A DNA stretch of 64,000 nucleotides. Source: Terebella lapidaria (lineage: Eukaryota > Annelida > Polychaeta > Terebellida > Terebellidae). The translations under genes were made by a program, and so were the position numbers. Each line of letters starts with the position of its first letter. The first letter of the stretch is position 1. This document shows, piece by piece, positions 6,340 to 64,000 of this stretch. The notes under the pieces are model-generated. The model was not told where the DNA came from. It was given only the letters and a program-made list of their open reading frames with translations, and did no database searches. The DNA lies in contig OX424555.1 of assembly GCA_949152475.1 (NCBI GenBank), positions 74,993,915 to 75,057,914 on the forward strand, written 5' to 3'.

Positions 6340-7345
6340 CGATTAGTGTGGTGACCTTGAAATTTAACTTTCGATGAGCTTTGAAAGGCCTTTCCGAATA
6401 TTGTATACCAAATCCGAATATTTTGATGACCTTGAATTTGACATTTGATCTTATTTGCGAGGTCAAAGCACAAAATGGCTAATATCTTGCTTATTATATG
6501 ATTTTACAGATCAGGAATCAATTGAGCATATGATATAAACTGAATATTGTCATGACCTTTCAGGAATGATATATGCTGAATATTCTGATGACTTTGAATT
6601 TGACCTTTGACCTCATTTTCAAGGTCAGAGCACAAATTGGCTAATATCTTGCTTATTATCGATTTTACAACTCAAGAATCAATTGAGCATATATGAAATG
6701 ATATAAACTGAATATTGTCATGACCTTGAATTTGACCTTTGACCTTACTTCAAGGTCAGAGCTCAAAATGGCTAATTTCTCGCTTATAATCGACTTTACA
6801 GCTTAAGAATCAATTGTGAACCTATAGGAAATAATATATGCTGAATATTGACATGACCTTGAATTTGACTTTATTTTCAAGGTCAGAGCACAAAATGACT
6901 AATATCGTTTATTATCGACTCTACAGTTTGGGAATAGGTTGTGTACAGGAAATAATACATGCTGAGTATTCTCATGACCTTGAACATGGCCATTGACCTT
7001 ATTTTCAACGTCGGAGAACAAAATGGCTAATATCTTGTTTGTTATCAACTTAAAGGCTTGTTGATCAATTGTAAACATACATGAAATAATATATGGTGAA
7101 TATTGTTATGACCTTGAATTTGACATTTGACCTCATTTTTCCTTCATAATGGGAGCTGTATGGAGTAAACTCGAAGAACACTTCAAGATGGAGCCTAAAT
7201 ATTGGTAGTATCAAATGGAAAATCATGTTGCAGTTTCAATGGTAATCTTAAATTTCACCCCCAATGACTTTGGAAGGTCAATAAGGCAATATTGATGAAA
7301 AAGAGTTATGGTTTAAAACTAAACATTTTCCGGTAACCTCTCTTA
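6340..7345. repeat. Diverged tandem array (unit about 120-135 bp) with nuclear-receptor-type motifs
   Basis: About seven diverged units, each with TGACCTTGA, then often TGACCTTTGACCT, then TCAAGGTCA, followed by ACAAAATGGCTAATATCT and a TATGCTGAATATT stretch. Clear starts lie near 6426, 6590, 6720, 6854, 6975 and 7108. Perfect AGGTCA direct repeats with one-base spacing sit at 6601-6613 and 6733-6745. The array ends near a CCGGTAACCTCTCTTAACCC stretch at 7331-7350 that matches the end of the sister copy at 56144-57550. Noncoding. Confidence 0.8.
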
Positions 7346-27400: not shown

Positions 27401-27475
27401 GCAGTAATGATATCGACCGAGGACAGTCAAGGAGTCAACAGGTGTGATAGGATCACGTAAGCACTTCCAGAGTCT
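24467..27475. other. Noncoding, presumed ZMIZ 5' intron
   Basis: Upstream (in transcript sense) of the first visible ZMIZ exon. I looked on the minus strand for the conserved ATELLDWCGDP and AVCAANRDKFTP blocks that should precede it and did not find them. Contains poly-G runs at 25071-25084 and 26703-26718. No gene recognised. Confidence 0.5.
26703..26718 (+). repeat. Poly-G run, 16 bases
   Basis: Uninterrupted G homopolymer in noncoding sequence. Confidence 0.9.
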
Positions 27476-27477
27476 CC

Positions 27478-28112
27478 AACAACCCTTCAATGTAAGGGAC
27501 CATCTCATAGTCTACAACTGCCCTCCAATGTAAGGGACCATCTCAGAGTGTCAATCAACTCTTCAATGTAAGGGACCATCTCAGAGTGTCAATCAACTCT
27601 TCAATGTAAGGGACTATCTCAGAGTGTCAAACAACTCTTCAATGTAAGGGACCATCTCATAGTGTCAAACTTCCTTTCAATGTCAGGGACCATCTCAGAG
27701 TCTTCAACTACCCTTCAATGTAAGGGACCATCTCAGAATGTCAAACTACCCTTCAATGTAAGGGACCATCTAAGAATGTCAAACTACCCTTCAATGTAAG
27801 GGATCATCTCATAGTGTCAAACTTCCTTTCAATGTCAGGGACCATCTCAGAGTCTTCAACAACCCTTCAATGTAAGGGACCATCTCAGAATGTCAAACTA
27901 CCATTCAATGTAAGGGACCATCTCAAGAGTGTCGAACTTACTTTCAATGTGAGGAAACATCTCAGAGTGTCAAACTACCCTTCAATGTAAGGGACCATCT
28001 CAAGAGTGTCGAACTTACTTTCAATGTGAGGAAACATCTCAGTGTCAACAACCTTCAATGTAAGGGACCATCTCACAGTCTCCAAAAACCCTTCATTGTG
28101 AGATACCATCTC
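27478..28112. repeat. 38 bp minisatellite, about 16 copies
   Basis: Head-to-tail units of the type TTCAATGTAAGGGACCATCT followed by CAGAGTGTCAAACTACCC, 38 bp each, with substitutions, a few one-base insertions and alternate variants (GTGAGGAAACATCT). Copies abut directly, with no unique spacers. Noncoding; the overlapping frames are chance. Confidence 0.9.
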
Positions 28113-29110
28113 ACAGTTTCCAATACACAACCACGAGAGCCATATTGTGGACTTTCTCAAAAGGTAATTGGAGTATCGTACCATCAGGGACTGTGTCAAA
28201 GATATAAAGCTGGCATTGCATGAATGTCTCAAGCCCTTTGTGCAAGAATGTGCATTAGATTTTACCAACATGAAATGCAGGGTTAGGTGACAATTTATCA
28301 CCATTCAGTCAAATCCACAAATTGTGGCTGCAAATTAATAATCAGAGATCATGATGCTCATGATTCACCGAAATTGCAATGATCCATCTCATGTCCATGG
28401 TGAAGATAAAGCACATGTATTTTGTAGGCCAACTTACGTGACAAACAAACAAATATTCACTGTTTACACAACATGTTGCTTGAAGTGGTACAGGTACACA
28501 AGTGAACTGTAAACAATATGAAACCTACTTGTAGTGAGATACATGATTAATAACATGTAATATCATTAAAAGCAATAAAAGAACACACCTCAATAGTCAT
28601 TAATATATATCAACAATAAACACTCAGATTTTCATGCAAATTGTATCGATCGGATCCCAAAGCACTATCAGCTATAGGTCATACACAGTGCTTGTAGAAC
28701 CAGAGAGTAAATCCCAAAGGCAGGGTAATGATATACAGCTGAACATGCTGATGACTGTGTGGCTATGATCTATACACATCAGGTGTCCAGTTGAGCAGGC
28801 TGACTGAGGCGGGGAGATCCTTAGTGCAAGGCATGTAATGGCTCACACCTCTATATACTCTTCATGCATTCCATACAGACAGAAGCAAGGCTATACAATA
28901 ATTCCCTCCTTCTCATATCCCAGTTAAGCTACTGTCTTGTATGTTCAATATTCAATATACTAGTAATCAGACCGACCCCCTAACTCCCTCACCAGTGCTT
29001 AGCCTGGAACTGCATGCATTGTGCCATACCTAGAGGCTCTGGCTGTGATGGACACCAGGCAGAGGTCAATCAGTGGTGATCATCACAACACCTGAGGGAG
29101 GGAGTGTGTT

Positions 29111-44455: not shown

Positions 44456-44464
44456 AGTCATTAG

Positions 44465-44845
44465 ATTCTTTACCAAATCAACAATCATTAGATTCTACAC
44501 CAAATCAACAATCTCTGGATTCTCCACCAAATCAACCAGTCCAGATTCTTCACCAAATCAACAATCTCCAGATTCTCCACCAATTCAACAATCTCTGGAT
44601 TCCGCCAAATCAACAACTCCAGATTCTCCACCAAACCAACAATTTCCAAATTCTCTACCAACAATTCTTCAGATTCTCCACCAAATCAGTGATCTCTGGA
44701 TTCTCCATCGAATAAAAAATCTCCAGATTTTCCACCAAATCAACAACTCCGGATTCTCCACCCAAGCAACCATCTCCAAATTCTCCACCAACAATCTTCA
44801 GATTCTCCACCAAAGCAATAATCCACGGATTCTCCACCGAATCAA
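44465..44845. repeat. Minisatellite with unit of about 27-30 bp
   Basis: Imperfect head-to-tail copies of CCAAATCAACAATCTCCAGA followed by TTCTCCA. The unit length near a multiple of 3 keeps a minus-strand frame open (repeated VENLEI-type peptide), which is not regarded as a gene. Confidence 0.8.
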
Positions 44846-47800
44846 CAATCAATGGTTCCAAAACTACGGTATACACAAGCAGTTTGCATGTACCACTGCA
44901 TTTACCATTACATGCACAAATTTCATGCAGAAGAGAATTGTAGATGCTTGAGACCTTTGAAGCTTTTAAGACTTCACTATGCATAAAAACTTGTTACATT
45001 GTAATTGACTCACTTAAGTAACGATTCTAAATCATGCTTGGGTGAGATAAACAAATTGTTAATTGTTTGTTAACATTTTGGTGATCTGGGTCAAAGAACT
45101 GGTCCGTAAAGTGCCATGACTATTAAAGGTCAACGGGCAAGCTACCAGAGGTATACCCTGTCCTCTCCAAGGTCACAACAGATACAGGAGGTTGCTGCTC
45201 AACATGCCTCTGTTTCTATGCCTTAATCCAATAGTTGGCCTCACAGCCACCGATTTACTGCCTAATGAAATAGGACGAGACCTCTATTACAGCAGGAAGG
45301 CAGAGTTGACCCAGCGCTGCTGCGACAAGACACCTTCATTCTGCTGGACTGCTCCCACATCCATGAACACAAGCAGCGGACACCCCCTTCATCCCGTCCC
45401 TCTCCCCATCAATTTATCTAACCTCTCCTAGCCGGCAGAATCAGCTCTCCCCACCATCTCACATCCTGATGTACTAAGGGTTCAGACCCATCGATCAGTC
45501 CAGACCCCTCCGTAAAGAGCTAACCCAGACCCATGGAACAGAACCAACTGAGGAGGGTCCCTCAGCCTGGGTCACCCAGCTCCCAAGTCAGCCAAAATTG
45601 GATATGGTCCTTGCCTGTTAATACCACTGAGGCACCGGCAGCATCCTTTCCCATCTTGTAATCTAACCAAGTCAAGTTATCTCCAGTCAATCTCACCCCC
45701 CTCACAGCCATTGCCCTGCTTCTCTCTCTCCCTCTCCCAAAAGTGTCTCTGTGCAGCCAGCAACATCGCCATCACAAAACTATCATCCTTTTATCGCTGT
45801 CAGTTTGTCTCCCCTTCACACCGCCTCGCCTCCTCCAGATCAACCTACACCGGCCACAGAACCTGATGGGCCAACCCAGACAAAAGAATAACGGACGACA
45901 GCAACAGAATACCAAATTTGATTAAATCCAACTGCACAGGAGTTTTTATTGATCTTGTAATGTGCATTCATCCTGTCAGAGGAGGGGTAGCACAGGGAGA
46001 AGGAATGACACAGATTGTTGGCCCGGGATTTCTTTCTGCCCACTTCTCATCCTTCCAGTAATGCTCAGTTTGCGAAATGATTTTTTGCCCCCATTTCGGA
46101 GCAAAAAGCTCAGTTTCATCAAATATTAAATCTTGCTCAGGACTTCCTTTATGGCTGCTGCATGACGCAGCCCTGTGATCATCACAACAATTATTGCAGA
46201 AGAATGATTAGCACTTTATCCTGACCATTCAGTCAATAAATTCTGTCCACAGCCGAATATGGTCGGGAGCGAGCTAAGAATTATGGACCTTGGAGGGCTT
46301 TTGCGCACAAGATTTTGCACTCTGGACTGGTGCAACAGGCCATCAGCCAAATAAAAAGATCCTAGTCGGGAGACTGGGGGACATGGCCATATCCCCAGTA
46401 CCATATTTCATGGGCGACTTTAGCAGTTTGACGAGGCACCAGACCCGTGCCGCCACCGCTGCCACCGACTGGCAATAAATGGAAACGAATGTCCTGGCCG
46501 GTGAGAGGATGTGAGCGCCATGCTAACAGGCTGATACTGGTCCCCTGGGAGCCGTGGACGGGTGATGATCGCGGCCGCTCCGGCACAATGATCCGCCGCC
46601 AAACAAAGGCCATTCTCCGGCAATAACCAGCGACAGTCGGGCGAGAGAGAGAGAGAGAGAGAGAGTGAGCGAGGGACCACTTCTCAAACTCATTCAAAGT
46701 TACCCTCGATACAACTCTGGGAACAAATGCTCACAATGAAGCGAGCGTAAATCAGTCAAGGGGAAAACCCAAACTAATCGTTCTGATTCTGTGGGCAAAG
46801 TAACAGCTACTTCCAAAGATGAACTTCAATGATTAGGAGTTCATGAGTTTAATCCATTCTGGGACATTTTGTACATCACACGACAAGATTACTGCTGTAA
46901 CTGGCATTAGGAAGTGATGGTCTGAATAATGCTCATGTAGCTCATTGTCACATGGTTACCGGTAATCACTGGGGTTTGTTTGGTGCTTAAGACTACTGAA
47001 TTAGCTTTTGTCACTGTAATCATAATAGGCTCATTACTTAACATGCTTAGTGTAATATTCACTGTGACCAACCACCATTGTAACACTATTAATGCCATAA
47101 AGGTAGCTAGCAATATGACAAATATATGATCCCCTCTCAACATAGAACAAATGTTTGGCATGGGAATGGAGGCCAGTGGAATACAAACAGCTCTTTCCTC
47201 AACAGGAGTCACATATTCAGCACCTCAGAGGCCAGAAAATGTGGACATTTCCAGGAGACACCTTGGGCCCAGGAGATGATGGCTTGATAAGTGTGGTCCT
47301 CTGATGGATGTTCTCACCCATATCCTTGCTCCCCTCTCCTCCACCTAGTAACTACACTAGGGAAGGTTCCCGGAGCAGCAAGGTCACCAGGGTCCAGGTC
47401 GGCATGATGAGGGGGGGGGGGGGGGGGGGTAGGGGCGGATAGGAGGGTGTTTGGGAACCAACGAAATCCATGTTGGAAAATCACCAAACATGGGCTGAAA
47501 AGTTGTGACTGGAAGCAGCAACTGGAACAGTAGATTGATAGGAGATCACATGTTGGACAGTGGTGGTGGGAGGGTTGGGGTGTGTGGGCAGGTCTAGAGA
47601 CTGTGAGGGGGTGCTGCTTCCGCTGGTCCACAAGGCACTAAATCACTGACAGCTCCCAGTGCCAAGAAGAAAGTCTGCTCTTCTGTCTCTTTCAGCAAAA
47701 AGACGAAGCAACCCGGGCTGGAGTCATGACAAATAGTTGCTGGTATTAGTCTCTGAAAACCTCTTCAACATGGGAGAGTTCACATAAGGTCCTTGCATGT

Positions 47801-50800: not shown

Positions 50801-52686
50801 ACTACTCAATACTGAAGTGGTCGACAGGTTGTTACACGTCGTCGCTGATAAATACCTGAACATTACTGTCAACTGTCGCACAGTGTGTCGTGTGTCTGCA
50901 CACACACATCCATCAAATACACCGCACACGGCACAAGAACATTTCACCATAACCATATTTCACTGTTGCATAATTTTTGTCAGTGCAAATAATACTAGGT
51001 ACACACAAAGACTGCAATGAGTATTGCGAAACATCAGCTCATTCGGCGGTGAAAAGATACGCAGGCACCAATATTCATAATCAACACAACAGATCACACT
51101 CGGACGGAATGAACATTTCGAGCAGTACAATTCAAGCTCGTTGAGACAAACAACAGCACAGCCTGTTTATTGTGATAGCCTGACATCCACTAAGCACCTG
51201 ACTCAACATTTGCTGCGCATCAAACATAATCACATATCAGTGTTATATTGTGTGAATAATCAATTAGTTTTTCACAGTTGAATCATGTGCAGTTGGGGGA
51301 AAATATGTTATGAGCAAATAGGTGCTATATATATTTATGTAGTTGATTCTAAAATTTGCATTTCATCCATTGTAAACACACAACTCATTTACATGTACAC
51401 AATACATGAACTCTATCATTATTTCATTGAAAACTATCTGGACATCAGTGCACAGCCATATGTTTAATACTGGTTGTGGAAGATGAACTTGATGATACTA
51501 CTGTGTTGGTGCATTTATCATTTGTATACAGTTATACAGTATCTCATGCAGGATAGCAGTTTCTTACAGTACAACTAAATCCATCTAATTATAGCATAAC
51601 ACTTGACTCGTCCTTTAATGTAATAACTAGTTAATAAATTGATTCCTTCCGGCCATGGTTAACTATTCAAGTTAGTTAGCTGATAACTCATTTATTAAAC
51701 ACCTGTGCTTTTCTGCTGCAGTTGCAGGTAATAACCAGGCTATTGAGTAGAAAGTTATCTTTATTTGGTTTCCCTCCCCACAGCTTCTGAGGACATTAGG
51801 CCAGTTAGCACACAATGGCCTGGTCTCCTCTGTTGCTGCAACTCAGACAAAATCCATCGCCCAACCGTCATTAATCACTATCATACAGGCAACAATCAAC
51901 AACCGGCCGGGGTTTTTTTTCACCCCGGGTTTCCCCTTTATTCCCCGTCCTTACATCCCACCACGACTACTACCACTGCCACCACCCGGCTGTCCGCCAA
52001 TTCTCTGCCCGGCTTCTGCTTCTTTGTTTCTCCTCTCCGCCCAATCTACTGCATTATTTTATTGATTTATCTCCGTGGATAATACAGAAGGTCCTTTTGC
52101 TTTGTGCGTAGTCAGAATCTTGTGCAGCAAGGGGAAACACTGTAAACGTCACACAATCCCAGTGTCACTAGACTCGCTTACTCCATGACAGCCCCCGGAA
52201 AATCGATGCAACTGGAGAATATTTGGCCAGATTAAATAGCTCATGCCTTAGCAGTCTGTCAATAGATTGCAGCCTAAGCCACACTAAACATGGTTATCTG
52301 GGCAATGGCCAGGGGCACACACAGGAGCAACCCCCTCCCATCCAATTGCTGTCATTATGGCTTCCATAGCAATATGCTTTATGTATCGATGATTCCTGTG
52401 CCCTTGCACACCATTTCCCATTGCAATCCTTGCGTCTTTGCGGAGAGAAAGTGTCCTTGTTGTACCTCCTTCCCTCCCTCCCCCTCCCCCTCCCCCTCCC
52501 CCTCACCTCTTCACATCCCTGCTGTAAACATGACAATGTCCTCATGATCAATATTTCAACAAGATTGTTGTAACCTGGCTTTATACACATGTCCTGAGGC
52601 AACTGTAGACAACCAGCTCGTTCAGTGATTGGTAGGTAGTTCATGGTAAGCTGACGCGAAATTAGCTCCCACGAAATCTTATCCAG
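44846..52686. other. Noncoding, presumed ZMIZ 5' intron or upstream region
   Basis: No recognisable gene. A GA run at about 46644-46665, a poly-G run of 19 at 47411-47429, an 11 C run at 49230-49240, and a CCCCCT-type run at about 52478-52503. GC-rich patches near 46550-46640 and 48640-48740. Numerous short open frames lack any domain. Confidence 0.4.
47411..47429 (+). repeat. Poly-G run, 19 bases
   Basis: Uninterrupted G homopolymer in noncoding sequence. Confidence 0.9.
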
Positions 52687-52696
52687 TACAATTTTA

Positions 52697-54640
52697 TGCG
52701 ACGGCCATGCGGCGGTCCGTCAGAGCCACCCTGTAGCGTTGCTTCACACTGTTTCTGTTTATGTGACGGGCAAGTGACGGTCCGTCGGATAGCCGTTGTA
52801 GCGCCACATAAGAACATTTCTCTTTCTCCAAGTGACGGCCAAGTGACGGTCCGTCACATGGACGTTATAGCGCCACATAAAAATTTTTCCCTTTCTCCAA
52901 GTGACGGGCAAGTGACGGTCCGTCGGATAGCCGTTGTAGCGCCACATAAGAATTTTTTTCTTTCTCCAAGTGACGGCCAAGTGACGGTCCGTCACATGGA
53001 CGTTATAGCGCCACATAAGAATTTCTCCCATTCTCCAAGTGACGACCAAGCGACGGTCCGTCAGATAGCCCTTATAGCGCCACATAAGAACATTTCTCTT
53101 TCTCCAAGTGACGGCCAAGTGACGGTCCGTCACATGGACGTTATAGCGCCACATAAGAATTTTTCCCTTCCTCCAAGTGACGGGCAAGTGACGGTCCGTC
53201 AGATAGCCGTTGTAGCGCCACATAAGAATTTTTTTCTTTCTCCAAGTGACGGCCAAGTGACGGTCCGTCACATGGATGTTATAGCGCCACATAAGAATTT
53301 TTCCCTTCCTCCAAGTGACGACCAAGCGACGGTCCGTCAGATAGCCCTTGTAGCGCCACATAACAACATTTCTCTGTCTCCAAGTGACGGGCAAGTGACC
53401 GTCAGATAGGCCTTGGAGCGCCACATAGCCATATTTCCCTTTCCCCAAGCGACGAACAAGCGACGGTCCGTCAGATAGCCCTTGTAGTGCCACATAAGAA
53501 TATTCCTCTGTCTCTAAGTGACGGGCAAGTGACCGTCAGATAGGCCTTGGAGCGCCACATAGCAAAAATTACCCATTCTCCAAGTGACGGGCAAGCGACG
53601 ATCCGTCAGATAGACATTATAGCGCCACATAAGAATTTTTTCCTTTCTCCAAGTGACGACCAAGCGACGGTCCGTCAGATAGCCCTTGTAGCGCCACATA
53701 AGAACATTTCTCTTTCTCCAAGTGACGGGCAAGTGACCGTCAGATAGGCCTTGGAGCGCCACATAGCCATATTTCCCTTTCCCCAAGCGACGAGCAAGCG
53801 ACGGTCCGTCAGATAGCCCTTGTAGCGCCACATAAGAATATTCCTCTGTCTCCAAGTGATGGGCAAGTGACCATCAGATAGGCCTTGGAGCGCCACATAG
53901 CAAGATTACCCTTTCTCCAAGTGACGAGCAAGCGACGGTCCGTCAGATAGACCTTATAGCGCCACATAGCCATATTTCCATTTCCCCAAGCGACGAGCAA
54001 GTGACGGTCCGTCACATAGCCCTTGTAGCGCCACTTAAGAACATTCGTCTTCCTCCAAGTGACGTGCAAGTCACCTTCAGATAGGCCTTGGAGCACCACA
54101 TACCAAGATTAGCCTATCTCTAAGCGACGGGCAAGCGACGGTCCGTCAGATAGACGTTATAGCGCCACAAAAGATTTCTCCCCTTTCTCCAAGTGACGGG
54201 CAAGTGACAGTCCGTCACATAGACGTTATAGCGCCACATAAGATTTCTCCCCTTTCTCCAAGTGACGGACAAGCGACGGTTCGTCAGATAGATGTTATAG
54301 AGCCACATAGGAACATTTCTCTGTGTACAAGTGATGGGCAAGTGATGGTCCGTCACATGGATGTTATAATGCACATATCAATATTCCCCTTTCCCCAAGT
54401 GACGGGCAAGTGACGGTCAGATAGGCTTCGTAGCGTCACTTAGCAATGTTCCTCTTTCAGGAAGTGACGAACAAGTGACGGTCCGTCACATAGCCCTTGT
54501 AACGCCACATAAGAACATTTCTGCTTGTCTGTGTGATGGACAAGTGACGGTGCGTCAGATAGATATCATAGCGCCACGTATGAACATTTCTCTTTCTACA
54601 AGTGACGGGCAAGTGACGGCCCGTCAGATAGAGCTGATAC
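52697..54640 (+). repeat. 69 bp minisatellite array, left arm (about 28 units)
   Basis: Unit: GCGCCACATAAGAA, T/C-rich spacer, CTCCAAGTGACGGGCAAGTG, then ACGGTCCGTCAGATAG and a variable GCCC/ACG-TTATA or -TTGTA end. Canonical units are 69 bp; a variant lacks 4 bases within ACGGTCCGTC (for example near 53395-53410 and 53530-53545). Each canonical unit carries the palindromic core TGACGGTCCGTCA. Two unit types alternate (CACATGGACGTTATA and AGATAGCCCTTGTA), so the higher-order period is about 138 bp. Long frames on both strands arise because 69 is divisible by 3. Confidence 0.9.
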
Positions 54641-54654
54641 CCCCACATGAAAAA

Positions 54655-55020
54655 CACTATTAACTTTGAAAACTGGACAATTTCTGATGCATTGGGACAT
54701 ATGTCCGGAAATCAAATGAATATATTGAGAAATAAATCTCTGCGTACATTGGGTGAGAAGCAAGTATTGTTTTCCTTGTGGACCTTTGATATCAGTAACA
54801 TCAAACAATGACAAGCATTTCAAAGCAATATCCGACCAAATGATAATGATCGCAACATTGGCACTGATTGTGCTTTAGATATAAACATCATAGAAGATGC
54901 TTATATTGTCAGTTATATGCAATTAGTGGATACTGCTGTCACAGATGACTTGGCTGATAAGCCTGAGACAAAAGACAATGGGGTTTATACAAACAGTGAC
55001 ATCAGACATGGGCCCAGAGG
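54655..55020. repeat. Inner part of left inverted arm
   Basis: Matches 61262-61640 in inverted orientation with scattered substitutions and small gaps, for example GGGCCCATGTCTGATGTCAC and CCAAGTCATCTGTGACAGCA on the complementary strand. Not coding. Confidence 0.85.
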
Positions 55021-55840
55021 GTGAAGGGGGGGGGGGGGAGGGGGGTGTTAATCAGCAATGTTCTTTCATTGTGGTGAAAAAGTAGCACCCCAATATTTCT
55101 ACACATATTAAGGGGCATTTGACTGCCATATTTTAACTTGTTGGAATAAAACTTTGACCAGTCAAAGACATGTTCATTTATTCCTCAATACTATTCCTCT
55201 ATACTTTTGGGCAATGGTTAATGATATCATGCTATACTTTCCTGGCAATCACATCACTGAATGTTGTTACTTTTCTGCAAAATCTATCAGTTCTAGGTAA
55301 TTAATTACTGTCGTTGCTGTAGGGGCTGAAATGTATGCAATATTTATTTGTATCTGTAAATCAAATGACACATTGGAGTAGTGAAAGTAATGACTCCATC
55401 ACAAATATTCTTAGTTAGAGCAGAAAAATGCTTTCACGCATATCCATTGCCATTTGTTTTCAACTTACTGACACAAGTGTTAATGCAATGAACTAGTAAA
55501 ACCAATGTTGTCTTAATCATCAATAATTTTCCAGTTACCATGATAACCATGGTAACAGCAGACCTATATTTCTAGACATATCCAGTGTCATTCGTTTTCA
55601 AACGACTGGCACATATTCTAACTTGTTGGAATAAAGACGTTTACCAGTAAAGGTAATGTTCAGCTATATCATTCCATTGTAACCAATGGTAACTGGTATC
55701 ATGTCATACTTTCCTTTCAGTGGCATCACTGATTGTTGTTATTCTTTTGACAAATTTAGCAGTAGCAATTAATAAACACTTTCGGGTTACAATTGTTGCA
55801 ATTTATCATGTTTATTTGTATATGTAAATAAAATAACACA
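55021..55840. other. Interior of the foldback element, no gene
   Basis: Begins with a G13 run (55026-55038). The rest is AT-rich, with phrases such as AACTTGTTGGAATAAA occurring twice (about 55137 and 55620), suggesting an old duplication. No coding. Confidence 0.5.
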
Positions 55841-56143
55841 CTGAAATAGTAAAGGCAATGTTAACTAAATCAGCAATATTCTTTCAGTTCGAGCGACCTA
55901 TTTAGGATACCATTTCTTTGTACATAAAATAACACACTGAACTTGCAACAGTGATGTTAACTTAATCAGCAATATTCTTCCAGTTAGAGCACACCTATAT
56001 ATTATGTACCATATAAATGGTGACTGTTTTGGAGGGGAACACGGCAAAATGTTCCCTCGAGGAGACAATGTTACCGGAGGCGAAGCTGAGGTTAACATTG
56101 CCTTTGAGGTGGAACATTTCCTGACAAACGAGTGACCATTTAT
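55841..56143. repeat. Start of AT-rich array, interrupted by an inserted element
   Basis: Units of the type AATCAGCAATATTCTTCCAG with TTAGAGC begin here and resume at about 57660. Between 56030 and 56140 lies a different dispersed repeat (GGGAACACGGCAAAATGTTC, ACGAGTGACCATTTATTA), itself cut by the element at 56144. Confidence 0.6.
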
Positions 56144-57550
56144 TAGGTTACCGGACCTATGGTCCGATAACCTATTGGCATGGCGTTGCGTCCGTCGTCG
56201 TCGTCCACATTTTTATCTTTTTTGTTTACGGGCGAATTTTTCTGAAATTTTGCAGAAAAATACCTAAAAATAATTCAAGAAGGAGGTATTTTTTAGTTTT
56301 TTGATTTTCGCTTTTTCTTCAAAATGGCGGCCGCTTTCGACGAAAAAGGCCTGATTTTGGACTTTGGCGGCCATTTTCTCAAAATCTGTTCAGTAACTTT
56401 TTTTCTTTTTGATACATAAGACTCCTCATATGTACTTCTATGATGTCTATAAATTTCGTTGCGCTTGAATCGCTCGAAGTGGGCCATTTTGGCCCAAACT
56501 CAGCCCAAATGGGACTTTCCCATGTTAAATTCTCCTATGCTTTATAATGGGACACATTATGCCTAATATCTCACTTGATATTGAGATTAGAGACTAGGAA
56601 TCAATTGTGGACATATAGGAAATGATATATGCTGAATATTCTCGTGACCTTGAATTTGACCTCTGACCTCAGTTTCAAGGTCAGAGCACAAAATGGCTTA
56701 TATCTCGCTTATTATCGACTCTACAGCTTAGGAATCAATTGTGGACATATAGGAAATAATATATGCTGAATATTCTCGAGACCATGAATTTGACCTCTGA
56801 CCTCAGTTTCAAGGTCATAGGACAAAATGGCTTATATCTCGCTTATTATCGACTCTACAGCTTAGGAATCAATTGTGGACATATAGGAAATGATATATGC
56901 TGAAGATTCTGATGACCTTGAATTTGACCTTCGAACTCATTTTCAAGGTCACAGGACAAAATGGCTAATATCTCGCTTGTTATCGACTTTACAGCTTAGC
57001 AATCAATTATGAACATATAGGAAATGATATATGCAGATTATTGTCATGACCTTGAATTTGACCTTTGACCTCATTTTCAAGGTCACAGGACAAAATGGCT
57101 AATATCTCACTTATTATCGATTTTACAGCTTAGGAATCAATTGTGGACATATATAGGAAATGATATATGCTGAATATTCTCGTGACCTTGAATTTGACCT
57201 CTGACCTCATTTTCAAGGTCCAAGGACAAACTGGCTCATATCTAGCTCCTCTATTGACTGTATGGCTTGGGAATCAATTGTGGACATGATATACAAAATG
57301 ATATACATTGAATATTTTGATGATCTTGAATTTGACCTTTGCCCCTTCATTTTCAAGGCCACAGCACAAAATTGCTAATATCTCTCTGATTATTGAATTT
57401 ACAGCTTAGCAATCAACTGTGGACATGATATATGCTTAATGTTATATATGCTGAATATTCTCTTGACCTTGAATTCAACCAGTGACCTGGCTAACATCTA
57501 AAATATTAAACATTGTCCGGTAACCTATCTTCGGCCCTTGGCCTAATTTT
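56144..57550. mobile_element. TIR-bounded element carrying nuclear-receptor-motif array
   Basis: Starts with TAGGTTACCGGAC (56144-56156), which recurs as its exact inverse at 57515-57527, followed by TCTTCGGCCCTTGGCCTAAT. The first 400 bp (CGTCCGTCGTCGTCGTCCAC, AAAATGGCGGCCGC) matches the 7360-7560 repeat; then come about seven units of roughly 133 bp with TGACCTTGA, AGGTCA direct repeats and TCAAGGTCA. Perfect one-base-spaced direct repeats lie at 56657-56669, 56791-56803, 57059-57071 and 57195-57207. No transposase. Sister copy at 6340-7350. Confidence 0.75.
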
Positions 57551-57559
57551 TTATTATAC

Positions 57560-60295
57560 CGAATGTCACTGATTTTATTATGATGTTATACATATATCTG
57601 CAAATGTACCTACAAAGTCATTGTTGAAGTCGACAATTTTCTGAAGTCTTTGACGGCAGCGGTAAACTGAATCAGCAATATTCTTTTAGTTAGAGCAAAC
57701 CAATATGATACACAATTTCTTTGTACAAGTAAATAAAACAATGCACTGATTTGGTAAAAGTATTGTTAATTTAAATAACACTATTCTTCTAGTTAGAGCA
57801 AACCTACATAGTATGTAGAATTTATTTGTACAAGTAAATGAAGGAATGCACTGAACTAATAAAACTAATGTTAACATGATCAGCAATATTCTTCCAGTTA
57901 GAGCAAACCTACATATTATATAGAACTTATTTGTACCAGTAAAGAAACTAACACACTGAACTAATAAAACTAAGTTCAACTTAATCAGCAATATTCTTCA
58001 GTTAGAGCAAAGCCACGTAATATATAGAATTTATTTGCGCAAGTAAATGTACTAACGTACTGAAGTAATAACAGTAATGTTAACTTAATGAGCAATATTC
58101 TTCCAGGTAGGGCAAACCTACATAGTATTTAGAATTTATTTGTACAAGTAAATAAACTAACGCACTGAACTAATAACACTAATGTTAACTTAATCAGCGA
58201 TATTCTTCCAGTTTGAGCAAACCTATATAGTGATCAGCACTATTCTTCCAGTTACAGCAAACCTACATATTATATAGAACTTATTTGTACCAGTAAATAA
58301 ACTAACACACTGAACTAATAAAACTAAGGTTAACTCAATCAGCAATATTCTTCCAGTTAGAGCAAACCTACACATAGTATATAGAATTAATTTGTACAAT
58401 AAATAAGCCAGCACACTGAATTAACAAAACTAATGTTAACATGATCAGCAATATTCTTCCAGTTAGAGCAAACCTATATAATATGTACAATTTTGTGTTC
58501 AAGTAAATAAATTAACACATTGAACCAATTAATGAATAAAGCTAATTTTAACTTAATCAGTACAGTTCTTCCAGTTAGAACAAACCTACATAGTATATAG
58601 AATTTATTTTACAAGTAAATAAACTAACGCACTGAACTAATAACACTAATGTTAACATAATCAGCAATATTCTTCCAGTTAGAGCAAACCTATATAATAT
58701 GTACAATTTTGTGTTCAAGTAAATAAATTAACACATTGAACCAATAACTGAATAAAGCTAATTTTAACTCAATCAGCACAATTCTTCCAGTTAGAGCAAA
58801 CCTACATAGTATATAGAATTTATTGTACAATTAAATAAACTAACGCACTGAACTAATAACACTAATGTTAAGTTAATTAGCAATATTCTTCCAGTTAGAG
58901 CAAACCTACATATTATATAGAACTTATCTGTACCAGTAAATAAACTAACGCACTGAACTTATAAAACTAAGGTTAACTTAATCAGCAATATTCTTCCAGT
59001 TAGAGCAAAGCTACGTAATATGTAGAATTTATTTGCACAAGTAAATGAACTAACGCACAGAAGTAATAACAGTAATGTTAACTTAATGAGCAATATTCTT
59101 CCAGGCAGGGCAGACCTACATAGTATATAGAATTTATTTGTACAAGTAAATAAACTAACGCACTGAACTAATATAACTAATGTTAACTTAATCAGTAATA
59201 TTCTTCCAGTTATAGCAAACCTACATGGTATATAGAATTTATTTGTACAAGTAAATAAACCAGCACACTGAACTAATAAAACTAATGTTAACTTAATCAG
59301 CCAAATTCTTCCAGTTAGAGCAAATCTACATGGCATACAAAATTTATTTGAAGAAGTAAATAAAGTAATGCACTAAACTAATAAACTACTGTTAACTTAT
59401 TCAGCAATATTCTTCCAGTTGGAGCAAACCTAAACATAGTATATAGAATTAATTTGTACAATAAATAAGCCAGCACACTGAACTAATAAAACTAATGTTA
59501 ACATGATCAGCAATATTCTTCCAGTTAGAGCAAACCTATATAATATGTACAATTTTGCGTTCAAGTAAAATTAACACACTGAACCAATAACTGAATAAAG
59601 CTAATGTTAACTTAATCAGCACTATTCTTCCAGTTAGAGCAAACCTATAGTATACATAGTATATAGAATTTATTTGTACAAGTAAATAAACTAACGCACT
59701 GAACTAATAACACTAATGTTAACTTAATTAGCAATATTCTTCCAGTTAGAGCAAACCTATATAGTGATCAGCACTATTCTACCAGTTACAGCAAACCTAC
59801 ATATTATATAGAACTTATTTGTACCAGTAAATAAACTAGTGCACTGAACTAATAAAACTAAGGTTCTCATGATCAGCAATATTCTTCAGTTAGAGCAAAT
59901 TATATAATATGTACAATTATTTTGTTCAAGTAAATAAATTAACACACTGAACCAATAAAGCTGATGTTAACTTAATCAGCACTATTCTTCCATTTAGAGC
60001 AAACAAACCTACATAGTATATAGAATTTATTTATACAAGTAAATAAACTAATGCACTAAATTAATAAAACTCATGTTAACATGATCAGCAATATTCTTCC
60101 AGTTTGAGCCCTATATAGTATATAAAATTTTGTGTACAAGTAAATAAACTAACACACTGAAGTAGTAAAACTATTGTTAACTTAATCAGCAATATTCTTC
60201 CACTTACAGGAAAACTACATAGTATGTACAATTAATTTGTACAAGTAAATAAACTAACACACTGAACTCATAAAACTAATGTTAAAGTGATATTG
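57560..60295. repeat. AT-rich tandem array, unit about 120 bp, over 20 copies
   Basis: Each unit contains CAGCAATATTCTTCCAGTTA, GAGCAAACCTACATA, TATAGAATTTATTTGTACAA, GTAAATAAACTAACGCACTG and AACTAATAAAACTAATGTTA. Some units are shortened (for example around 58225 and 59765, where an ATAGTGATCAGCACTATTCT junction is repeated). Minus-strand frames with repeated LTLVLLVQC peptides are a by-product of the period. It fills the interior of the foldback element. Confidence 0.9.
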
Positions 60296-60783
60296 GCAGA
60301 AAGTTATGGACTTTGCCATACCTTTCTGATCGAAGGAAAAAACATACAGTTTTATATCTGCACTTGTATGGCCAAAGAGATGCCCATTTGTACTTGATTT
60401 CATTGCGAGTTTCTGGTGGAGACAGTTTGGGCTGATCATGAATTCCAATGATGATTACATTTCTGATTCTTCTGATGTTATACTAGGCAACAAAGTTCCT
60501 TTGATTGTCTTTAAAGTTCAGATCATGGATTACAAAATGGAACTGTTTGTAACACATGTATATGTATGGTTACATTTCTCAATCATTGAAAACTTCATTT
60601 CAACATTTAACTTCGAATAAGTGGAGGGACAGTCCAAAAAAGAAACACATCGAAACACACTTTCAACACTGAGATACATGTATATCTATTGCAATCTGAT
60701 GACCTCTGTGAATGGAAAGTACTGCAAAAGATATGATAATGATATTGTGAGTTCCCACCAAGACAGAACTGTCTGAATGTAGA
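60296..60783. other. Interior of the foldback element, nothing recognised
   Basis: Single-copy looking AT-rich sequence with short frames lacking domains. Confidence 0.4.
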
Positions 60784-60785
60784 TA

Positions 60786-60991
60786 CTGTAAAAAGACTAA
60801 TTTTGGCAGCTATTAAATTTGGCGGTTGTGTGCCCCACATTATTTGGCGGATATTTAATTTGGCGGTTTCAAAACCACATATATTTCTTAACATGTGTCT
60901 ACTTAATTTGGCGGACGATTTAATTTGGCGGTTTTTCCCCTACTGCCAAATCCGCCAAATAAATCGTCCGCCAATATTATTCGTTTTACAG
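60786..60991. mobile_element. 206 bp MITE with TA target duplication and TTTGGCGG repeats
   Basis: Ends are CTGTAAAAAGACTAATTTTG and, inverted, CTGTAAAACGAATAATATTG, flanked by TA at 60784-60785 and 60992-60993. The body has five copies of ATTTGGCGG or a close variant on the plus strand and two on the minus strand; arms at 60909-60931 and 60952-60974 form a near-perfect hairpin of about 23 bp. No coding. TA duplication fits a Tc1/mariner-type origin, but the ends are not diagnostic. Confidence 0.75.
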
Positions 60992-61261
60992 TATTAATTC
61001 CTTGACTGAGAAACAGACCCCATTTTCTGAAAAACAGACCCCATGGATGAAAATTATTGTCCTATAGTAAACATGAAGCAGAATCACAATTTGGCCATCT
61101 GACATGTACATGTATACTGTACCCTTCTCAATATTATCATCATTGTCTTTAAAAATCCACCTGAAGTGCCCTTGTCCTCCACGCCACCAGTGCAACACTG
61201 ATGTCCTGCATTCTATATCATCTGTGCATGTTCCCCCTCCCCCCCTTGCCCTCCCCCTCAC

Positions 61262-61640
61262 CCTAGCTCACCCTCTGGGCCCATGTCTGATGTCACTGTT
61301 TGTATAAACCCCAGTCTCTTTTATCCTAGGCTTATCAGCCAAGTCATCTGTGACAGCAGTATCCACTAATTGCATATGACTTGTGACTAAAATCTATGAT
61401 GTTTATATCTAAAGCACAATCAGTGCCAATGTTAGGGTCATTATCATGTGGTGAGATATTGGTTTGAATTGCATGTCATTGTTTGATGTTCCTGATATCA
61501 AAGGTTCACAAGGAAAACAATAGTTGCTTCTAACCGGATCCCATGCATTTTGAATATTTACACAGAGATAACATTTATTTCTCATCAAATATTCATTTGA
61601 TTTCAGACAATACGTCTTAATGCATCAGGGATTGTGCAGT
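61262..61640. repeat. Inner part of right inverted arm
   Basis: Inverse copy of 54655-55020. Bounded on the left by a C/T-rich stretch (61228-61262) that mirrors the G-rich stretch at 55021-55045. Confidence 0.85.
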
Positions 61641-61687
61641 GTTCACCACTTATAGTGTGTTTTTCTTGTGGCACTATATCATCTATC

Positions 61688-63191
61688 TCATGGACAGTCA
61701 CTTGCTCATCACTTGGGGAAGGGAAATCCTGCTGTGTGGCGCTTTTTGCCCATCACTTGCTGAAGGAATATATTGCTATGTTGCGCTATAATGTTTTATC
61801 TGACGAACTGTCGCTTGCTCATCACTTGGCGAGGGGAATTATCGCTATGCGGCGCTATAACATCCATGTGACGAACCGTCGCTTGCCCGTCACTTGGGGC
61901 AGGGAAATATTGCTATGCGGCGCTATAACGTCTATCTGACGGACCGTCGCTTGCCCGTCACTTGGGGCAGGGAAATATTGCTATGTGGCGCTATAATGTC
62001 CATGTGACGGACCGTCACTTGACCGTCTCTTGGAGAAAGGTGAATATTGTTATGTGGCACTATAACGTACATTTGACGGACCGTCACTTGGAGAAAGAGA
62101 AATTATTTATGTGGCGCTACAAGGGCTATCTGACGGTCACTTGCCTGTCACATGGAGGTAGAGAAATGTTCTTATGTGGCGCTACAAGGGCTATCTGACA
62201 GACCGTCACTTGCTCGTCACTTGGGGAAAGGGAAATATGGTCACTTGGAGAAAGGGTAATTTTGCTAAGGCCTATCTGACGGTCACTTGCCCGTCACTTG
62301 GAGACAGAGAAATATTCTTATGTGGCGCTACAAGGGCTATCTGACGGACCGTCGCTTGCTCGTCGCTTGGGGAAAGGGAAATATGGCTATGTGGCGCTCC
62401 AAGGCCTATCTGACGGTCACTTGCCCGTCACTTTGAGACAGAGAAATATTCTTATGTGGCGCTACAAGGGCTATCCGACGGACCGTCGCTTGGTCGTCAC
62501 TTGGAGAAAGGGAAAAATTCTTATGTGGCGCTATAACGTCTATCTGACGGACCGTCGCTTGCCCGTCACTTGGAGAATGGGTAATTTTGCTATGTGGCGC
62601 TCCAAGGCCTATCTGACGGTCACTTGCCCGTCACTTTGAGACAGAGAAATATTCTTATGTGGCGCTACAAGGGCTATTTGGCGGACCGTCGCTTGCTCGT
62701 CGCTTGGGGAAAAGGAAATATGGCTATGTGGTGCTCCAAGGCCTATCTGACGGACACTTGCCCGTCGCTTGCCCGTCACTTGGAGAAAGAGAAAATTTCT
62801 TATGTGACACTACAAGGGCTATCTGACGGATCGTCACTTGCCCGTCACTTGGAGAAAGGGAAAAATTCTTATGTGGCGCTATAACGTCCATGTGACGGAC
62901 CGTCACTTGGCCGTCACTTGGAGATAAAAAAAAAATTCTTATGTGGCGCTACAACGGCTATCTGACGGACCGTCACTTGCCCGTCACTTGGAGAAAGGGA
63001 AAAATTCTTATGTGGCGCTATAACGTCCATGTGACGGACCGTCACTTGGCCGTCACTTGGAGAAAGAGAAATGTTCTTATGTGGCGCTACAAGGTCTATC
63101 CGACGGACCGTCGCTTGCTCGTCACATGGGTAGAGTCATAGCTATGTGGCGCTATAAGGTCTATCTGACAGACCGTCGCATGGGCGTCACA
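61688..63191 (-). repeat. 69 bp minisatellite array, right arm (about 22 units)
   Basis: Inverse orientation of the left array: TCTGACGGACCGTC, GCTTGCCCGTCACTTGGAGA, AAGGGAAA, TTCTTATGTGGCGCTA, TAACGTC or CAAGGGC. The 4-base-short variant (CTATCTGACGGTCACTTG) occurs here as well (for example 62125-62140 and 62272-62290), so both variants predate or are exchanged between the arms. The innermost units (61690-61900) are the most diverged. Confidence 0.9.
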
Positions 63192-63198
63192 TACAATT

Positions 63199-64000
63199 CC
63201 AAGAAAGTGGATGAGGAGAAATAAAAATTTCGCGGGTTCTTACCATGAAAGGGTAACCGACACCCAGATGAAGTATGCCACGTTACCATTTAACATCGCA
63301 ATAATATCAGTGAAAACGGTGTAATTGAGTCAGTAAAATCAAATTGTACATATACAGTACAATTCACAGAATACAGCGAAGCCCGCAAAATAGCGCGCAA
63401 CGTATGTCCAAGGTGGAATCGCTCGCTATCCGTACAACTTACCACGAATATATAGTAGTCGGGCTAACCGGCGTCAGGCCGGACAAATAGCCGTAGATGT
63501 ATACGCCCTGTATTCCCCTCCCTGTATGATGTTTCGAGCGGTAGGGGGGAGGTGAGGGGGGGTCATTCAGGAGTTGCATATATGCGGGCAGTCGAGCCAT
63601 TGAAGCCAGAGTGTACACTCTCTGGCAGTCCAAACGATGCGGAGCTCCGCTCTGAATGTTAGGGACCTACTCTGCCTACACTCTGCCTAGATTCATAGAT
63701 CACATACACATACACATGCACATGCGCTGCGACAAATAGTCCCTGGTCGTCTCAAGAGAAATAGGTTGATAAGCTCAGCATAATCGAAATAATTCGGAAT
63801 GAGTATTTTAAACTATTGTCTAAAATGCTCAAAAGTAATTCGTCCTTGTCAACCCCTGCAATACAACATATTTCTGGTGGTTACTTCTTGGCGTAGTATT
63901 ATAAGTAATTACAGTAATTATAACCACACAATTGGAGCGGTCATACTTTGTGAGTTCTAAGATAACTGGCAGGAAAATCGGAAATTGCACTTGCGCATTC
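63199..64000. other. Flank of the foldback element, nothing recognised
   Basis: No repeat array or credible gene. Minus-strand GTAAGT at about 63442 and GTAAGA at about 63251 look like possible donors following short open stretches, but there is no protein similarity to support exons. A palindromic GCGGAGCTCCGC lies at about 63639-63650. Confidence 0.35.

Follow-up and report, generated by a model that had tools for sequence, protein, structure and literature searches.

Organization of the Foldback Element

The window considered here, that is, the whole 64,000-nucleotide stretch of Terebella lapidaria DNA that was analysed (C1:74993915-75057914), harbours a foldback element of 10,628 bp at positions 52631-63258 of the forward strand, with its left (L) end on the left and its right (R) end on the right. 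These limits are defined by a second copy at C5:40804503-40815130, since 100% identity between the two begins and ends exactly there and the flanks differ on both sides. The preliminary description had placed the element at 52697-63191; it does lie there, although its true ends are located 66 bp and 67 bp farther out. The termini are GGTAGGTAGTTCATGGTAAG at the L end and GGTTACCCTTTCATGGTAAG at the R end, with NNNNCGCGAAATT next after each.

Inward from each end, the element consists of a flanking domain (132 bp on the left, 81 bp on the right), an array of 69-bp units, an inner domain, and a middle region with AT-rich arrays of 105-bp units. On the forward strand, the left flanking domain (52631-52762), recognized by end comparison and the end-pattern search, contains the terminal GGTAGGTAGTTCATGGTAAG and CGCGAAATT, and is followed by the left arm (52763-54632), comprising 27.4 copies of the 69-bp unit, and by the left inner domain (54633-55010), which shows inverted similarity to 61300-61690. 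In the opposite orientation, the right inner domain (61300-61745), also recognized by inverted similarity, precedes the right arm (61746-63177), with 21 inverted copies of the unit, and the right flanking domain (63178-63258), where the terminal GGTTACCCTTTCATGGTAAG is read inward. Both arrays were delimited by Tandem Repeats Finder (TRF) and are mutually inverted, with complementary stretches reaching 97% and an alignment that extends over 1,471 bp at 85.9%, while the shared inner stretch is made of inverted pieces of 101-260 bp at 80-89%. The inverted tandem-repeat arms and common inner stretch that had been proposed are thus borne out by TRF and by the inverted alignments. Among eight complete copies that were compared, total length varies from 8.6 to 12.6 kb, with L arrays of 1.9-4.0 kb and R arrays of about 1.1-1.6 kb. 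Gene conversion between the two arms of a copy was not seen: an arm and its own opposite arm are 89.5% identical, equal to the mean for the opposite arms of other copies (89.5%), and the same-side arms of other copies reach a mean of 93.3% (371 chunks, 7 copies).

The 69-bp unit is conserved in a specific pattern. Across 399 units from 7 copies, the palindrome-bearing core GTGACG..CAAG.GACGGTCCGTCA exceeds 90% conservation at every lettered position, and several other positions fall to 43-70%. Each unit contains the conserved palindrome TGACGGTCCGTCA, which, by analogy with Galileo, may be an enzyme binding site; in that element, binding sites are reported within the arm repeats (PMC3688188). 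The sequence GACGGNCCGTC is present 17 times in one arm and 10 times in the other, and is found neither in the middle region nor in window positions 1-52630.

Dispersed Copies and Target Site Duplications

The genome searched comprises 761.6 Mb in 438 contigs. A 278-bp query from the arm gave at least 421 matches, counted over the best 40 of 227 candidates. The end pattern TTCATGGTAAGNNNNCGCGAAATT was matched 138 times (69+69), compared with 0 in the control, so the occurrence of inverted arms with matching ends is not due to chance. At the R end, the outermost 69 bp are identical in all 40 places scored, these being the best 40 of 77 candidates. When the ends were listed by type, allowing one ambiguous base per pattern, 73 L ends and 64 R ends were counted. 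When a pair is defined as neighbouring ends of opposite type, facing inward and within 35 kb of each other, the end motifs form 56 dispersed L/R pairs with a median length of 10,147 bp (range 3,660-32,211), and 25 ends stay unpaired. A search for further copies with matching ends, which had been suggested as a check, was therefore positive. Relatives of the ends that lack the family's C after TTCATGGTAAGNNNN account for 64 matches (control 4), of which 59 form a single tandem array on C11 and the remaining five are solo ends and a 60-bp derivative.

Insertion is accompanied by a target site duplication (TSD) of 8 bp without a strong sequence motif. Both flanks were read for 40 copies, namely 38 of the 56 pairs, one copy that carries a nested MULE, and the 60-bp derivative, and the duplication is exact (8/8) in 32 of them. 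It agrees at 7 of 8 positions in four (C1:35.05, C2:40.17, the MULE-bearing C1:45.235, and the 60-bp derivative at C1:35.037), the score for C1:45.235 assuming the loss of one base at its R end. In scoring, the outer L end was taken for C7:37.7, and the two tandem L ends at C1:66.0 have one common flank. In two further copies, that of the window and its twin on C5, the TSDs are exchanged, and the last two have no matching duplication. An insertion with a TSD had been predicted correctly, except that its length is 8 bp and its sequence is not TACAATT. The latter had been described as a probable duplication outside both ends; it actually lies within the element (52687-52693 and 63192-63198), and a TGCAAT form occupies this position in 12 of the 14 left ends read, TACAATT being present only in the window copy and the identical C5 twin. 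For these reasons, TACAATT was rejected as the target duplication.

Several observations illustrate the recent history of the family. The copies at C1:3.86 and C1:86.44 are 100% identical across the 7,695 bp compared, their full lengths are 12,303 and 12,305 bp, and each has its own exact TSD; several further groups of copies agree in length to within a few bases. Because near-identical copies occupy different sites, each with its own exact duplication, it is inferred that the family transposed recently. The 60-bp derivative at C1:35037313-35037372 joins 25 bp from the R end to 33 bp from the L end, with 2 bp between them, and its flanking octamers agree at 7 of 8 positions. At C7:37705351-37718526, the outer L end at 37705351 bears the matching CGATGTTT, which resolves an apparent TSD mismatch. 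The 14 bp preceding the inner L end of this copy equal window 54950-54963 and are also mirrored in the right inner domain; this locus thus appears to be one family copy inserted into another, at the position matching window 54963, and the right parts of the two appear to have merged. Two L ends, at C1:66014251 and C1:66015388, lie 1,137 bp from each other and have an identical 14-bp flank, and the left end with its flank looks duplicated in tandem.

Exchanged Flanks at the C1 and C5 Loci

The two identical copies, in the window and on C5, have reciprocally exchanged flanks. To the left of the window copy, the flank ends in the octamer CAGTGATT (52623-52630, forward strand), with which the right flank of the C5 copy begins. 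Conversely, GACACCCA, which is the duplication belonging to the insertion site on C5, closes the C5 left flank and opens the right flank in the window (63259-63266, forward strand), where it adjoins the right end of the element in this assembly. When flanks were joined without the element and used as a query, 39 of 41 rows (from the best 40 of 978 candidates) crossed the C5-left/C1-right junction; these rows are 99-100% identical to the query and contain GACACCCA once. Since these 39 rows span the junction with one octamer, the C5-left and C1-right flanks were contiguous before insertion, within a copy of another dispersed repeat, and the rows are empty sites in other copies of that repeat. 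Empty sites, which had been named as a check, are in this way available for one of the two exchanged loci and carry one GACACCCA. The corresponding C1-left/C5-right query retrieved only the C5 half among the scored rows. Window positions 63259-64000 start inside another high-copy dispersed repeat.

Runs of N are found close to both copies. Exactly 200 N are located 477 bp to the right of the C5 copy. On C1, N occupy 75058000-75058009 and are absent up to 75057914 and at 75058190, which places the start of the run 742-828 bp to the right of the window copy (one of 20 sampled points). No other N occurs in the window or in the letters fetched (298,567 in all, some overlapping). These runs are probable scaffold gaps. 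Because both twins have N less than 1 kb beyond their right end, the exchanged TSDs are most likely an error of assembly joining at two identical copies; two contigs that both stop just past an identical repeat of 10.6 kb are the picture that a wrong join would leave. The last 742 bp of the window (63259-64000) are therefore probably misplaced and belong to the C5:40.8 Mb locus, as the counterpart of the C5-left flank, as the exchanged TSDs, the empty sites, and the nearby N runs suggest. Unmatched flanks as a possible by-product of assembly have also been raised for Galileo (PMC3573991).

The strongest competing explanation holds that C1 and C5 did undergo a reciprocal translocation, either by ectopic crossing-over between copies or through the insertion of a hybrid element; both models are discussed for Galileo (PMC2775673). 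Such an event would account for the perfect reciprocal swap of two 8-bp TSDs and for the 100% identity of the copies along 10,628 bp, and it has a precedent in Galileo, where exchanged TSDs mark inversion breakpoints and the hybrid-element model predicts identical copies (PMC2775673); furthermore, the N runs need not be scaffold gaps. Their location near the right end of both copies, with no other N in the window or in the fetched letters, is nevertheless expected of a bad join and would hardly arise by chance, and a genuine translocation is considered unlikely. The earlier idea that the element may promote rearrangements thus finds the exchanged-TSD signature at the window copy, but assembly error explains it better.

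Search for a Transposase

Eight stop-to-stop frames of at least 110 aa are present in the element; in six of these, on our reading, all or most of the sequence belongs to the arrays. Seven frames were scanned against Pfam and contained no transposase, with two weak matches below the cut-off (ASH and DUF5661). The reported absence of a transposase therefore held for the frames and copies examined. The search for a coding copy, recommended at the outset, did reveal a MULE transposase open reading frame (ORF) of 463 aa inside the family copy at C1:45.235-45.257 Mb, although it belongs to an independent nested element, and the family's own enzyme was not found. The MULE is a 2,548-bp unit (C1:45236692-45239239) inside the 69-bp array, bounded by separate termini, GGGATACGGTCAAAACCCC/GGGTCCATGTCAAAACCCC, and flanked by a 9-bp TSD of its own, TATAGCGCC; on these grounds its enzyme was rejected as the family transposase. 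The nested MULE has a terminal GTCAAAACCCC minisatellite, and relatives occur at C2:29.97 Mb and elsewhere; the former also starts with GTCAAAACCCC repeats. None of the family's end motifs is found in the 8 kb fetched around the C2:29.97 Mb relative.

It could be argued that the element is a foldback derivative of the MULE family whose gene sits in the C1:45.235-45.257 Mb copy. The 463-aa ORF indeed lies in a family copy, and the 8-bp TSD falls within the 8-11 bp range given for MULE elements (PMC6446971). The separate termini and 9-bp TSD of the unit within the array, and the C2:29.97 Mb relative without family end motifs in 8 kb, make this origin highly improbable, and MULE is compatible by TSD length only.

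Other superfamilies were considered in the same way. Among 101 Merlin, KDZ (Zisupton group), and MULE matches, none lies inside a pair (Merlin 0/48, KDZ 0/14, MULE 0/39), one MULE being nested in the C1:45.235 copy. No P-like transposase was seen inside pairs among the 150 matches listed of 496 candidates, compared by eye. For Merlin (PF12762), the right end of one family differs from that of the element, and its two loci contain none of the family end motifs; the Merlin family with this end, the one end read, is thus an unlikely partner. In two Merlin-bearing loci of the genome, the gene is bordered on one side by repeat-rich sequence. The hAT superfamily produces 8-bp TSDs of the nTnnnnAn type. 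In 34 TSDs, which were not oriented to the element, this pattern is absent (T at position 7 in 18, A at position 2 in 15); hAT enzymes were not searched. The long copy at C1:35.05 contains interior ORFs of 1,290 and 521 aa, the shorter of which matches PNMA just under the cut-off. It was rejected as an autonomous copy because these ORFs are nested and retroelement-like, the long terminal repeat (LTR) type being our own reading.

Middle Region and Nested Elements

The interior is rich in additional repeats, and the AT-rich array, the element bounded by terminal inverted repeats (TIRs), and the miniature inverted-repeat transposable element (MITE) noted in the preliminary description correspond to an AT-rich array, a nested element, and a MITE-like stretch, respectively. 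A short array of 96-bp units (55823-55998, TRF) is also present in other copies. It is followed by a nested 1.4 kb element (56145-57548) with an array of 134-bp units and GGTTACCGGAC near both ends. Nine other copies lack this element and have the joined site, one of them with a few additional bases, while it is present in the C5 twin, and its 134-bp array in the C7 copy; it is a later insertion into the foldback element. At window 6561-7139, an array of 131-bp units resembles the 134-bp unit, and the nested family probably has further copies. The AT-rich array of about 105-bp units in the middle domain (57665-60285, TRF) was found in 11 of 12 compared copies besides the window copy and the C5 twin, the twelfth having been fetched in part. 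A MITE-like stretch, TACTGTAAAA...TTTTACAGTA (60784-60993), read directly in the sequence, lies inside aligned stretches common to at least three other copies. Away from the element, minisatellites with 27-bp and 38-bp units occur at window 44462-44850 and 27468-28117, respectively.

Proposed Mechanism and Significance

The element is very probably a non-autonomous foldback-type cut-and-paste DNA transposon, presumably mobilized in trans, and the TSD exchange between the window copy and the C5 twin most likely reflects an assembly error. This model is supported by the fixed ends, the 8-bp TSD, the dispersed copies, the empty sites for one insertion, the near-identical copies at different sites, and the lack of a recognizable transposase in the copies examined. 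A DDE transposase supplied by another element would act in trans by recognizing the conserved termini GGT...TTCATGGTAAG....CGCGAAATT, and the 69-bp units with the palindrome TGACGGTCCGTCA might serve as additional binding sites, as in Galileo. The length of the arrays would shift between copies through repeat expansion and contraction, and the assembly would have joined two identical copies wrongly, giving rise to the exchanged TSDs.

Several points weigh against this model. No autonomous partner was found, which leaves the enzyme and the superfamily unproven. The palindrome core is not the sole conserved block in the unit, as AGCGCCACATA is also conserved at 92% or more, and array homogenization could yield the same pattern. 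Of the 40 copies with both flanks read, two have no matching TSD and are unexplained (C3:38848561-38852220, 3,660 bp, 4/8; C4:18292716-18306445, 3/8). In addition, 25 ends have no partner, both flanks were read for 38 of the 56 pairs and two other copies, and the N runs may be something other than scaffold gaps. A more specific proposal, offered tentatively and with little expectation, is that the mover is a transposase of an undescribed group, characterized by an 8-bp TSD and GGT termini with internal TTCATGGTAAG....CGCGAAATT, which would use the 69-bp palindrome array as a binding platform; the arms might then be selected for multivalent binding, and the 60-bp derivative at C1:35037313-35037372 (TSD 7/8) could be a minimal substrate. 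The view that the inverted arrays result from local inversion of a satellite, with no mobile element involved, draws on the fact that the arms are tandem arrays, and is refuted by 56 dispersed end pairs with constant termini, 8-bp TSDs, and empty sites, so that it deserves practically no credence.

The family is large, recent, and well bounded, and its many copies and natural deletion derivatives make it useful for studying the role of long repetitive arms. Near-identical foldback copies of 10 kb can also yield a likely false translocation signature in a chromosome-scale assembly, and exchanged TSDs are the very signature taken as proof of transposon-driven rearrangement.

Comparison with Known Foldback Systems

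The element shows the features of the foldback-type TIR class, namely long inverted tandem-repeat arms around a non-coding middle, a TSD on insertion, and copies scattered through the genome that share its ends. The TU elements of sea urchin and FB of Drosophila likewise have inverted arms composed of short tandem repeats. The closest match is Tetris, a foldback element of Drosophila virilis (PMC4079207), likened by its description. In both, a flanking domain, a tandem-repeat outer domain, an inner domain, and a variable middle follow one another, and Tetris is reported to have, as found here, no apparent coding capacity, no autonomous partner found, and a TSD of comparable length (8-10 bp). 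Tetris differs in its unit of about 220 bp (69 bp here), its flanking domain of up to 866 bp (132/81 bp here), and its three structurally complete copies, compared with dozens of end pairs in the present family.

Galileo, a foldback-like member of the P superfamily, shares long, internally repetitive arms, transposase-less copies, and some non-matching TSDs (PMC3573991, PMC2775673), and possibly also binding sites in the arm repeats, which are described for Galileo (PMC3688188) and proposed for the element. Its TSD is 7 bp with a consensus, whereas that of the element is 8 bp without a strong motif (PMC2775673), and no P-type transposase was seen in pairs among the 150 matches listed of 496. 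Rehavkus resembles the element in having a minisatellite near an end, located before the 3' TIR, and differs from it in a 9-bp TSD, compared with an 8-bp TSD and no transposase here (PMC6446971). Literature searches pointed to no description of the family, as far as text searches, which cannot reveal a sequence match, can indicate. Of the earlier suggestion of an undescribed foldback family, the foldback-type mobile element is supported and novelty is plausible. The element is plausibly a new family of a known kind, that of the Tetris/Galileo-type foldbacks.

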